From: Diaminobutyricimonas aerilata
GTDB lineage: Bacteria > Actinomycetota > Actinomycetes > Actinomycetales > Microbacteriaceae
DNA length: 64,000 nt
Direction of reading: 5' to 3'
Assembly: GCF_002797715.1 (NCBI RefSeq)
Contig: NZ_PGFF01000001.1
Coordinates: forward strand, 558,001-622,000
The notes under the pieces are model-generated. The model ran no database searches and was not told the DNA's origin. It saw nothing but the letters and a program-made list of their open reading frames with translations. Made by a program: the position numbers and the translations under genes. Shown one piece after another: positions 23,446-54,279 of this stretch (within the stretch, counting starts at the first letter, position 1; the number at the start of each line of letters is the position of its first letter).

Positions 23446-24582
23446 ATGAACGAATCCGCGCGACTCCCCGTTGTCGTGGTGGGTGCGGGGGCGATGGGTG
23501 GCGAGTGGATCCGCATGCTCGCCCGGTCGCCGCACGCCGAACCGGTCGGCGTCGTCGACCTCAACGTCGACCTCGCCCGCGAGACCGTCGCCTCGGCCGG
23601 TCTCGACGTCGCTGTCGGCGCCTCGCTCGTCGGGGTGGCCGAGGCGTCCGGTGCTCGCGCGGTCGTCAACGTGACCGTGCCGCAAGCGCACCGCGTGGTG
23701 AACGAGCAGGCTCTGCGCGCGGGCCTGCCCGTGCTGTGCGAGAAGCCGCTCGCTCCGACGGTGGCGGAGGCGCTGCGCCAGGTCGCGCTGGCCGACCTCA
23801 CCGGCGGTCTGCTCATGGTCAGCCAGTCCCGGCGGTACTTCAACCACCTGGCGGCGTTCCGTCAGGCGGTCGCCGCGCTCGGTCCGCTCGGGGCCGTGCA
23901 CGCCCAGTTCTTCCACGAGGACCACGAACCCGGATTCCGCGAGCAGATGGCGCATCCGCTGCTCGTCGACATGTCGGTGCACCACTTCGACATGCTGCGC
24001 TACCTCAGCGACGATGAGCCGGTGAGCGTGCGCTGCGACTCGTGGAACCCGTCGTGGAGCTGGTTCGCCGGCCACGCCGCGGCGACCGCGACGTTCGAGC
24101 TCGCGTCCGGCGCCCGCTTCATCTACTCGGGCAGCCGGGCGACCCCCGGGCTGCAGACCTCGTGGAACGCGGACTGGCACGTGTACGCCGAGAAGGGCGC
24201 CGCGCACTGGGACGGCGACTTCGTCGTCGAGACGGATGCCGAAGGCGTCGAGTTCGAGGTGCCGGACCGCAGCGAGAGCATCGAGGGGTCGCTCGAGGAG
24301 TTCGTCGGTGCATTGCGCACGGGCACGACCCCGCAGAACGAGGTGCGCGCCAACGTGCTCACCCTGGCCATGATCGAGGGGGCGATCCGCAGCAGCGACC
24401 GCGGTGGCGAGAAGGTCGTCATCGCGGACCTCCTCGAGGAGTCGCTCGCCCAGGCCATCGCCGACGAGCAGCGCGACGACGTCGCGGGCCTCCTGCGCTC
24501 ATGGACCAGTGCCGCCGACGGCATCGCCACACCGGCCTGGGGATCGATCCCGGCCCCGATCGCGTCAGGAGGCGCCCATTGA
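23446..24582 (+). CDS. Gfo/Idh/MocA family NAD(P)-dependent sugar dehydrogenase
   Basis: A 378-aa oxidoreductase. The Rossmann motif VVVVGAGAMGGEWIRML is at the N-terminus, followed by the conserved CEKPLAPT (catalytic Lys) near residue 97 and the active-site segment MSVHHFDMLRYL near residue 175. Such enzymes oxidise inositols, sugars or glycosides; the family contains both IolG and ThuB. Lying between a CUT1 transporter and a ThuA protein it looks like ThuB, which forms 3-keto-disaccharides, but an inositol dehydrogenase role is also reasonable next to iol genes. I take ATG 23446 because GAAGGG (23434-23439) directly abuts the alternative ATG 23440. Confidence 0.9.
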   Translation: MNESARLPVVVVGAGAMGGEWIRMLARSPHAEPVGVVDLNVDLARETVASAGLDVAVGASLVGVAEASGARAVVNVTVPQAHRVVNEQALRAGLPVLCEKPLAPTVAEALRQVALADLTGGLLMVSQSRRYFNHLAAFRQAVAALGPLGAVHAQFFHEDHEPGFREQMAHPLLVDMSVHHFDMLRYLSDDEPVSVRCDSWNPSWSWFAGHAAATATFELASGARFIYSGSRATPGLQTSWNADWHVYAEKGAAHWDGDFVVETDAEGVEFEVPDRSESIEGSLEEFVGALRTGTTPQNEVRANVLTLAMIEGAIRSSDRGGEKVVIADLLEESLAQAIADEQRDDVAGLLRSWTSAADGIATPAWGSIPAPIASGGAH

Positions 24583-25412
24583 CCACCTCAACCACCGAGA
24601 AGAAGGCCATCCGGGTCGTCGTCTGGGGCGAGAACCGGCACGAGCAGGTCAACGCGGTCGTGCGCGGCATCTACCCGGACGGCATGCACAGCACCATCGC
24701 GGAGGGCATCACCCGCCTGCTCGGCGACGACGTCACCGTCACGACGCGGGTGCTCGACGACCCGGAGCACGGCATGACCGAGGAGCTGCTCGCGCAGACC
24801 GACGTGCTGCTGTGGTGGGGGCACACCGCCCATGAAGAGGTGTCGGACGAGGTCGTGGACCGCATCCAGAAGCACGTGCTCGAAGGCATGGGCATCATCG
24901 TGCTGCACTCGGGGCACCACTCGAAGATCTTCCGGCGCCTCATGGGCACCACCTGCAGCCTGCGCTGGCGCAACGACAACGACGGCGAGCTCATCTGGAC
25001 CGTCTCGCCGCGTCATCCCATCGCCGAGGGGGTGCCGCAGCCGCTCGTCATCCCCGGACAGGAGATGTACGGCGAGTTCTTCGACATCCCCGAACCCGAC
25101 GAGCTCATCTTCATCAGCAGCTTCTCGGGCGGTGAGGTGTTCCGCAGCGGCATCACCTACCGCCGCGGCTACGGCAAGGTGTTCTACTTCAGCCCGGGCG
25201 ACGAGATCTTCCCCGTCTACCACCACCCCGACGTGCAGCGCGTTATCGCGAACGGCGTGAAGTGGGCCCACTCCGAGCGGGCGCGCGAGTCGTACCTGAT
25301 CACGCCGATGTACGTCTCCGGCGAGTTCGACCGCCCCGTGCTCACCTCGCCCGAGGGCCTCGTCGACTACTACACCCGTGAGCTCATCGCGCCGCGGGAG
25401 ACCGCCGACTGA
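24579..25412 (+). CDS. ThuA-like trehalose utilisation family protein
   Basis: A 277-aa class I glutamine-amidotransferase-like fold of the ThuA family. Characteristic pieces are RVVVWGENRHEQ at the N-terminus, TDVLLWWGHTAHEEV, IIVLHSGHHSKIFRRLMGT and GRVFYFSPGDE-type sequence (YGKVFYFSPGDEIFPVYHHP). It starts with TTG 24579, overlapping the dehydrogenase stop, with a strong AGGAGG at 24568-24573. ThuA works with ThuB in 3-keto-sugar metabolism in rhizobia; its exact reaction is poorly defined. It is the last gene of the transporter operon. Confidence 0.9.
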   Translation: MTTSTTEKKAIRVVVWGENRHEQVNAVVRGIYPDGMHSTIAEGITRLLGDDVTVTTRVLDDPEHGMTEELLAQTDVLLWWGHTAHEEVSDEVVDRIQKHVLEGMGIIVLHSGHHSKIFRRLMGTTCSLRWRNDNDGELIWTVSPRHPIAEGVPQPLVIPGQEMYGEFFDIPEPDELIFISSFSGGEVFRSGITYRRGYGKVFYFSPGDEIFPVYHHPDVQRVIANGVKWAHSERARESYLITPMYVSGEFDRPVLTSPEGLVDYYTRELIAPRETAD

Positions 25413-25430: not shown

Positions 25431-25585
25431 CACGTCGAGCGTGCCCGTTCCGGACGCCTCGGCGCCGGAATCGCACCGTTCACGTCCGGAACGGGCACGC
25501 CGGGCGTGCCGACCACGTCGAGCGTGCCCGTTCGCGACACTTTTCCGCTGTTTCGGTGCAATTTCTGTCGCCAACGGGCACGCTC
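25431..25585. repeat. Two adjacent long palindromes (family A) between convergent genes
   Basis: Two homologous hairpins stand in tandem. The first has perfect 16-bp arms GCGTGCCCGTTCCGGA (25439-25454) and TCCGGAACGGGCACGC (25485-25500). The second has AGCGTGCCCGTT (25521-25532) and AACGGGCACGCT (25573-25584), plus GCGAC/GTCGC inside. Both begin with the same 20-nt direct repeat (25431-25450 and 25514-25533). Loops are about 30 nt and unrelated. They fill the 244-bp gap between the ends of thuA-like and soxR genes and could terminate both, but they are larger than ordinary terminators and lack T tracts. Confidence 0.85.
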
Positions 25586-25656
25586 GGCGGTGGGACGACA
25601 CGGGACGCGACGCACGCACGCCGCGGGGCCCGCGGGCGGACGACCGGCGTGCGGCG

Positions 25657-26118
25657 TCAGTCCTCCCAGAACCGCGGGCCGGGGCCCTCGCGGCCGTGCT
25701 CGTCGCGCGGGTTCTGCAGCGCGCACACGCCGAGGCTGAGGCACCCGCATCCGATGCAGTCGGTCAGGTCGCTGCGCAAGTGCTCGAGCTGGCGGATGCG
25801 CCGGTCGAGGTCGTCGCGCCACACCGCACTCAGCCGCTCCCAGTCGTGCCGGGTCGGGGTGCGCGCCGCGGGCAGGGTGCCGAGCGCGTCCCGGATCTCG
25901 GCGAGCGAGATGCCGATGCGCTGCGCGGTGCGGATGAACGCGATCCGTCGCAGCACCTCGCGCTTGTACCGCCGCTGGTTGCCCGCCGTGCGGGTGGAGT
26001 GGATGAGGCCCTCGCGTTCGTAGAAGTGCAGCGTCGAGACGGTGACCCCGCTGCGCCGGGCGACGTCGCCGACCGTCAGGATCGCGCGCGGGCCGCCCTC
26101 GATGTGCACGTCGCCCAT
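25657..26118 (-). CDS. soxR: Redox-sensitive MerR-type regulator SoxR
   Basis: A 153-aa protein. The MerR winged helix reads LTVGDVARRSGVTVSTLHFYEREGL (residues 14-38), followed by a dimerisation helix and the SoxR [2Fe-2S] cluster C-I-G-C-G-C-L-S-L-G-V-C (Cys 121, 124, 126, 132). In actinobacteria SoxR senses redox-active compounds such as phenazines or actinorhodin-like quinones, rather than superoxide. It is divergent from an MFS pump with a SoxR-box-like palindrome in between. Confidence 0.96.
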   Translation of the reverse strand: MGDVHIEGGPRAILTVGDVARRSGVTVSTLHFYEREGLIHSTRTAGNQRRYKREVLRRIAFIRTAQRIGISLAEIRDALGTLPAARTPTRHDWERLSAVWRDDLDRRIRQLEHLRSDLTDCIGCGCLSLGVCALQNPRDEHGREGPGPRFWED

Positions 26119-46671: not shown

Positions 46672-46734
46672 CGGTTTCCCGTCAGTAGATGCCCCCATCC
46701 GGCGGTCGTAAGGGCGCCTACTGACGGGAAACCG
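46672..46734. repeat. Palindromic element family B, copy 1
   Basis: A 63-nt element. Perfect 17-bp arms CGGTTTCCCGTCAGTAG (46672-46688) and CTACTGACGGGAAACCG (46718-46734), with further pairing inside (GCCC/GGGC) around a loop containing ATCCGGCGGTCGTAA. It lies 73 bp after the permease gene. The 486-bp gap 46600-47085 otherwise holds only very GC-rich sequence and copy 2. Confidence 0.88.
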
Positions 46735-46905: not shown

Positions 46906-46968
46906 CGGTTTCCCGTCAGTAGTCGCCCTCATCCGGCGGTCGTAAGGGCGTCTACTGACGGAAAACAG
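46906..46968. repeat. Palindromic element family B, copy 2
   Basis: Same 63-nt length and orientation as copy 1, 234 bp downstream, identical at 57 of 63 positions. The left arm is identical; the right arm (46952-46968) has two changes that break pairing, so this copy appears to be decaying. No gene lies between the copies. Confidence 0.87.
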
Positions 46969-48128: not shown

Positions 48129-48194
48129 CCGGTGAGTTGCGGACTTCTGCGGCTATGCGGGCCGGGATTCCGGCGGAAGTCCGCAACTCACCGG
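48129..48194. repeat. Palindromic element family C, copy 1
   Basis: Perfect 19-bp arms CCGGTGAGTTGCGGACTTC (48129-48147) and GAAGTCCGCAACTCACCGG (48176-48194) around a 28-nt loop. It lies 65 bp after the esterase gene. A second copy is at 54185-54244. The 346-bp gap 48064-48409 also contains the operator at 48323 and nothing else evident. Confidence 0.88.
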
Positions 48195-54146: not shown

Positions 54147-54184
54147 CGCGATCGCGTTCGGGTCGCACGCGCTCGCCACCATTC

Positions 54185-54244
54185 GTGAGTTGCGGACATC
54201 TGTGGCTATTCGCGCCGGGATTCCCGCAGAAGTCCGCGACTCGA
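54185..54244. repeat. Palindromic element family C, copy 2
   Basis: This 60-nt sequence aligns without gaps to 48132-48191, identical at 51 of 60 positions. It starts GTGAGTTGCGGAC and ends GAAGTCCGCGACTC. It is placed between convergent genes (lacI-type at 53076 and xylB), 38 bp after the former and 35 bp before the end of xylB. Arm pairing is weaker than in copy 1. Confidence 0.85.
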
Positions 54245-54279
54245 GGGGCCCACTCGCGCGGTCTCCCGCGACGGTCGGT

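Follow-up and report, generated by a model that had tools for sequence, protein, structure and literature searches.

What are the two long palindromes that lie side by side between a pair of convergent genes in Diaminobutyricimonas aerilata, and what could have spread such sequences? Both fall in the window, by which we mean the whole 64,000-nucleotide stretch of the D. aerilata genome that was analyzed (Table 1). The initial annotation described tandem hairpins with arms of 16 and 12 bp, a shared left flank and a position between convergent genes, and likened them to a mobile or REP-like unit. Both hairpins are present, they share the left flank CACGTCGAGCGTGCCCGTT, and they occupy the gap between a ThuA-family gene and a MerR-family gene that face each other; the arms proved longer than described, at ∼18-24 bp with one variable position. 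Copy 1 begins 20 bp past the ThuA stop codon, copy 2 follows after a gap of 9 nt, and 67 bp separate copy 2 from the 3' end of the MerR gene. Each copy has a core of the form GTGCCCGTT-NSS-GAC, 28 nt, GTC-SSN-AACGGGCAC, and the core is flanked in both by CGNCGARC/GYTCGNCG, which is mostly paired. The pattern GTGCCCGTT N{10,40} AACGGGCAC matches twice in the window (100 shuffles give 0.00 matches on average), and the 176-nt region folds with an energy of -113.1 kcal/mol (z = -8.41 relative to 200 shuffles).

Table 1. Palindromes and neighboring genes in the window, and the two bracketed genes elsewhere in the D. aerilata genome (positions prefixed C1).
Feature	Position	Strand	Evidence or remark
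Type-A palindrome, solo copy 1, 74 nt	25433..25506	.	covariance model 65.8 bits, E 4.2e-18 (window)
Type-A palindrome, solo copy 2, 74 nt	25516..25589	.	covariance model 71.3 bits, E 8.1e-20 (window)
Core of type-A copy 1	25441-25498		GTGCCCGTTCCGGAC-N28-GTCCGGAACGGGCAC
Core of type-A copy 2	25524-25581		
ThuA-family gene, left neighbor	24579..25412	+	PF06283, 119.9 bits
MerR-family regulator gene, right neighbor	25657..26118	-	PF13411, PF09278
Type-C palindrome, solo copy 1, 57 nt	46675..46731	.	
Type-C palindrome, solo copy 2, 57 nt	46909..46965	.	
Type-D palindrome, solo copy 1, 62 nt	48131..48192	.	GGTGAGTTGCGGACTTCTGCGG arm
Type-D palindrome, solo copy 2, 62 nt	54184..54245	.	
Type-A family gene	C1:2881656-2882486		one in-frame TAG
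Type-C bracketed family gene	C1:3232362-3232997		

The same palindrome recurs throughout the genome. Searched with a covariance model derived from 23 copies, the D. aerilata genome has it at no fewer than 33 places, which account for 66 of the 68 strand hits and reach E≤1.5e-6; this is a lower bound, with 150 of 7413 first-look candidates scored by the model; a local duplication of a terminator is thereby excluded. The exact core pattern matches 14 places in the 3.49-Mb genome and its reversed form none, as was the case for the reversed-pattern controls in four pattern searches. Sorted by eye, the copies comprise 20 of type A (GTGCCCGTTNSSGAC) and 13 of type B (GTGCCTYCATCCGAC), and their length is nearly constant (74 nt in 30 copies, 75 nt in three). 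Two A/B intermediates, at G000:C1:220690 and 3086102, carry unlike words in their arms. A relaxed fixed-length pattern recovers 30 of the 33 copies and reveals no third type with type A/B flanks in this genome; no partner gene was identified for type B. According to our own simple codon-model gene caller, all 33 copies are intergenic, 17 of them between convergent, 11 between tandem and 5 between divergent genes. Four pairs are spaced 82-84 bp apart and two of these combine A with B, so the close pairs are not merely tandem duplications.

Two further identities for these sequences were rejected. Matches to Rfam all fall below the curated scores and are mostly to microRNA-type hairpins, and of 24 pattern matches in viral contigs none has fully paired 7-nt arms, consistent with chance rather than carriage by phage. 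A short repeat, CCCTTCGACAGGCTCAGGG, adjoins several palindromes of the D. aerilata genome (L022, L029, L035, L036 and L010) and occurs in seven exact copies in a 464-kb sample of that genome.

This sample, which consists of the window plus an even sample of 400 kb, contains seven palindromes that pass a strict threshold, compared with none in two shuffles of 164 kb: three are of type A, two of type D, one of type C and one of another make. The last (L229:5126, at about C1 765126) is a strong palindrome akin to the CCCTGAGCCCGTCGA repeat type. Type C comprises the two solo copies in the window, a third in L225, and the two palindromes with the same word that bracket the gene at 3232362, all 57 nt long; this gene is a weak match to the profile of the protein family described below (E 1.7e-12). 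The two type-C copies of the window share one intergenic region. Type D recurs at L227:6916, L103:3005 and L093:1192, always with a length of 62 nt, and no partner gene was found for it. The genome thus holds at least four dispersed palindrome types of fixed length, two of which have a bracketed gene.

To characterize the arms quantitatively, we aligned 23 type-A-like copies (17 from D. aerilata, 6 from other genomes) out of the 26 known at that stage; L001, L024 and L031 were omitted for a one-base difference in length, and the alignment predates the recognition of type B. Standard pairs make up 84.4% of positions in the named structure and 75.7% after shuffling. The covariation score, which is inflated by relatedness among the copies, is 0.254 compared with 0.117 for shuffled alignments; it exceeds all slid versions and is reached in 0 of 500 shuffles. 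Two of the five covariation measures are less extreme: pairs with two-sided changes number 14 (24 of 500 shuffles as high) and further pair types 29 (60 of 500). Columns 19/56 and 20/55 swap G-C for C-G with no mismatch in any of the 23 sequences, and 20/55 is U-A in two of them. The same behavior is seen between orthologous copies of two genomes, G301 and G261 (L150/L165 and L143/L166), each pair differing at two arm positions that have changed on both sides together, along with some uncompensated arm changes and with indels in the outer flanks. The arms are conserved, with compensatory changes, and the earlier remark that arms are conserved and loops are not holds across copies.

The palindrome is widespread among relatives. 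At E≤0.001, 71 of 299 Microbacteriaceae genomes match, D. aerilata included, representing 39 of 85 genera, in a scan with strict filters and 16 candidates scored per genome, where misses are expected. At the level of the class, 11 of 296 genomes match at E≤1e-4 (D. aerilata, two other members of the family and eight genomes from outside it), some of these matches being weak or of different length. A scan of named genomes found the same 58-nt core in three Cryobacterium species, in Lacisediminihabitans and in two MAGs. In the three Cryobacterium species the element is kept between the same genes, and copies also remain in place across species in G301/G261 and G214/G300. The nearest relative compared, a genome of the same genus that is 85% complete (G001), has no copy at E≤1e-5 and only two weak strand hits (best 3.2e-5), indicating that copy number changes fast. 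The arm word varies among relatives (GTTTCCG, GTTGCC, GTGCACG and others) and is matched in the opposite arm. Over 80 copies it recurs inside the stem, displaced by 19 nt, with an identity of 0.539 compared with 0.303 after shuffling; this recurrence comes from the relatives (0.57-0.77) and is absent from the D. aerilata copies (0.31 and 0.33).

The initial annotation proposed looking for copies at gene ends, and the copies do tend to lie near 3' ends. Convergent genes flank 41 of the 104 copies scored, tandem genes 48 and divergent genes 12; two are unassignable and one sits within a called gene. Flanking 3' ends are at a median distance of 26 nt (131 ends) and 5' ends at one of 79 nt (73 ends). 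These distances and orientations rest on our own gene caller, and the count omits nine loci of odd length or shifted window (L082, L084, L087, L090, L137, L165, L169, L172 and L176), a duplicate and a contig-end copy (L040 and L044), and the loci of the class scan. Such a distribution is what would be expected of bidirectional transcription terminators or stabilizers of mRNA 3' ends, held by selection for an RNA hairpin, and the orthologous copies, which keep their arms paired partly by two-sided changes while their flanks gain indels, speak for the same explanation. We nevertheless consider it rather unlikely. None of the 48 tandem copies is followed by a run of four or more T within 12 nt, 12 of the 104 copies lie between divergent genes, and the conserved primary sequence, the near-constant 74 nt and the word repeated at a 19-nt shift in relatives would all be superfluous for termination. 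The excess of G-U over A-C in the transcribed orientation (60 compared with 46) is a weak bias, too weak to decide for a reading on RNA alone. Termination also leaves unexplained the matched repeats that flank one gene family.

This family emerged from a comparison of neighbors (113 loci, 377 proteins), in which one protein family stands beside the palindrome in several genomes. Its type-A member in D. aerilata is bracketed by type-A copies at C1:2881567-2881640 and 2882709-2882782. The palindrome is present on both sides in six of seven seed loci (D. aerilata, G102, G214, G249, G261 and G303), the far-side copies in the five relatives having E values from 3e-11 to 6e-4 with the model's filters off, and the paired palindromes are 1137-1231 bp apart from start to start; the seed gene of G301 has a palindrome downstream only. 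These seven loci were chosen by adjacency and cannot prove an association. Four more loci that had been found by their palindrome (L071, L084, L180 and L182) have a family gene within the 3 kb examined. The anatomy of the unit is a palindrome, ∼100-350 bp, the gene, and the same palindrome 0 to ∼200 bp past the stop codon, each gene having its own palindrome word.

The proteins are AbiEi-like and seem to have a nuclease-like C-terminus of the DUF559/Vsr or PD-(D/E)XK type. PADLOC AbiEi models match all six seed proteins (best 6.5e-18), and Pfam AbiEi_4 matches one of the six (7.2e-5). DUF559 exceeds its curated cut-off of 20.6 bits in two of four further proteins (22.6 and 21.1 bits; L221 and L219), and REase_MTES_1575 stays below its own cut-off in the four proteins scanned. 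The six seeds, which are nearest to type A, have no Pfam nuclease or DUF559 match; they share a GE-x-DG...K motif with other members in the alignment, and their nuclease nature is putative. No known transposase domain was found in a family protein. A PDB profile search with the protein alignment returned one meaningless match (E 0.69), and NCBIfam profiles gave nothing useful.

To evaluate the association on genes picked by protein similarity, we searched the protein alignment against seven genomes. The 50 hits comprise the six seeds, 31 genes that were examined (L191-L221), 12 that were left aside and one second hit within one gene. For each gene we compared 460 bp upstream with 400 bp downstream and applied a repeat-score cut-off of 19. 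A flank-to-flank repeat at or above this score is found in 25 of 31 family genes (22 of 28 when three congeneric pairs are collapsed) and in none of 88 control genes (highest score 17.5); most controls are D. aerilata genes, and relatives supplied 26 of the 31 family genes. The six genes without a matched pair are L192, L196, L202, L214, L216 and L221, the last of which has a DUF559 match. An earlier cross-locus control (169 pairs; 95% point 13.0, maximum 49.5) was replaced by the control genes; its maximum may stem from orthologues in the two genomes of one genus. The shared repeats are largely palindromes of ∼55-75 nt, and their word is specific to each gene except between orthologues. A separate palindrome threshold is passed on both sides by 14 of the 31 genes, on one side by 13 and on neither by four, the one-sided scores overlapping those of random windows, which have their 95% point at 19 and go up to 23 of 27.

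Whole units can be inherited in place, as in three congeneric pairs (L205/L212, L207/L213 and L215/L217) that are 82-87% identical over ∼4 kb. At one locus shared by two genera, D. aerilata L192 and L223 of G303, both flanks are 75-78% identical and the genes show no DNA alignment; neither gene is among the other's four best matches among the genes compared, a comparison that omits as queries ten genes that are fragmentary or in doubtful frame. Replacement, insertion on more than one occasion and very rapid divergence would each account for such a locus.

How could a family of such genes account for the two hairpins in the window? We infer, from the arrangement of genes and words, that the hairpins may be solo copies of the palindrome found at the ends of a small unit made up of a gene and its palindromes. 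The AbiEi-like N-terminal part would bind the word repeated in the palindrome, much as AbiEi binds the inverted repeats of the abiE promoter, and the nuclease part would nick or cut the palindrome, perhaps in its hairpin form. Repair or capture of the cut DNA could then copy palindromes into new intergenic sites, where solo palindromes would be non-autonomous copies, standing to the gene as REPs stand to RAYT genes. We give an even chance to the core of this proposal, namely that the solo palindromes are REP-like ends which a cognate AbiEi-nuclease recognizes and which have spread in non-autonomous form. Because the type-A gene of D. aerilata has an in-frame TAG, type A may no longer be mobilized there, and its remaining copies would simply persist near gene ends. 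The wider generalization is one toward which we lean less: that small mobile units of this kind are common in Microbacteriaceae, with an AbiEi-like DNA-binding domain, fused to a DUF559-type nuclease, in place of a transposase, each protein recognizing a private word in the long palindromes at both ends of its unit, seeding non-autonomous palindromes and diverging together with its word. In appearance, the gene-plus-palindrome units of the relatives resemble spreading elements of a little-known kind.

Several observations count against movement. We searched 83 copies for target-site duplications at offsets from -6 to +6 and lengths of 2-9, and none is clear; the largest excess, at offset -5, is small (13 dinucleotides compared with 7.6 expected, and 2 near-identical 8-mers compared with 0.1). 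Old copies may have lost their duplication. Solo half-ends and a proven empty site are likewise wanting, the search for type A/B half-ends in the D. aerilata genome having returned one perfect match outside the known copies (2718869), which is chance-like. Several copies and whole units, moreover, stay put between species. What stands of the mobile, REP-like unit proposed initially is a dispersed, REP-like intergenic palindrome, while its mobility is putative and the REP-type (Y1) transposase that had been predicted is absent, with no match to PF01797 in the D. aerilata genome.

The palindromes might instead be operators of AbiEi-type repressors, the upstream copy being autoregulatory and the scattered copies forming a regulon, with no mobility at all. 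AbiEi does bind inverted repeats upstream of abiE and represses it, according to the available text of PMC3985639, and each unit has matching words at its two ends, which vary from one unit to the next. This is distinctly improbable in our judgment, given that a like palindrome also lies downstream of the gene at six of the seven seed loci and of many among the 31 other genes, that solo copies favor 3' ends over promoters, and that the type-A gene of D. aerilata is interrupted, yet ∼18 further type-A copies remain. Terminator and operator functions could, however, coexist with a mobile unit.

Less probable still is that the palindromes are MITEs belonging to a classical DDE insertion sequence, with the transposase lost or encoded elsewhere. 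Transposon ends can carry two transposase sites, and the two repeated words on each side in relatives resemble such ends; the terminal repeats are also common to gene-bearing elements, the putatively mobile type-A and type-C units of Table 1. Against this, the 83 copies have no clear target-site duplication, the genome has, among perfect matches, no type A/B solo half-ends beyond the one chance-like match, and no gene other than the AbiEi-like one was seen to be enclosed by matched palindromes.

Ordinary REP or REPIN elements moved by a RAYT (Y1 HUH) transposase would explain the size class, the 3'-end bias and the four pairs at 82-84 bp spacing, and are nonetheless very improbable, since PF01797, which a diverged RAYT could escape, has no match in D. 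aerilata (5 of 14 control genomes match), neither half of the palindrome forms a hairpin by eye, the stems of ∼20 bp or more exceed the 8-9-bp stems given for CGTC families in the accessible part of PMC3733652, and there is no unpaired GTAG or CGTC tag, both ends being paired. Many D. aerilata copies do start with CGTC on one side, inside the paired flank.

It is instructive to compare the proposed gene-palindrome unit with known systems. REP/RAYT systems (REPtrons with GTAG REPs), as far as the account in PMC3733652 extends, similarly have short, dispersed, intergenic palindromes at 3' ends, several types and a flanked gene. Unlike them, as that account presents them, the palindromes described here have no Y1 HUH enzyme, a near-constant length of 57-75 nt, long arms and no unpaired tag, and the gene they flank encodes an AbiEi-like protein whose C-terminus resembles DUF559. 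The TIRtrons of the same source likewise have terminal repeats that bound a gene, are in some cases self-complementary and also occur solo, whereas their TIRYT is a tyrosine (HUH) transposase (PMC3733652, same portion). With the AbiE type IV toxin-antitoxin system, in the part of PMC3985639 available to us, the units share an AbiEi-like N-terminal region and inverted repeats as the expected target; AbiEi of Streptococcus agalactiae is there a winged-helix protein whose own promoter has the inverted repeats to which it binds, the target being TGTTGCTTTTA-N27-TAAAAGCAACA. The units differ from AbiE in the nuclease-like C-terminal domain and in repeats that flank both sides and disperse. In the literature, covered mostly at the level of titles and abstracts, we found no description of palindrome-bounded AbiEi/DUF559 genes.

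REP-like palindromes without a known mobilizing enzyme are a standing puzzle, and according to PMC3733652 the CGTC REPs have no dedicated transposase. Here a concrete partner gene is identified by its position and its matching words, and PADLOC models group its family with AbiEi. If the pairing is true, many orphan actinobacterial AbiEi/DUF559 genes would be selfish elements or site-specific nucleases, not antitoxins, and would provide a collection of DNA-binding proteins whose respective targets can be read directly from the two ends of the gene that encodes each of them.

Other actinobacterial families of nearly the same length as type A are on record. Myt-1 is a stem-loop family of M. tuberculosis (72 nt, 75 copies) and Cod-5 an intergenic family of C. 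diphtheriae (74 nt, 35 copies), as described in the available part of PMC2267715, and by comparison of descriptions only they may be kin of the type A/B palindromes. Like long palindromes, for example with CGAGTGTGCAATTTCCGACG arms, also occur in other actinobacterial families (L182 in G476, L183 and L190 in G331, L184, L185 and L187), and a distant relative of the AbiEi-like protein lies near the palindrome of L182.
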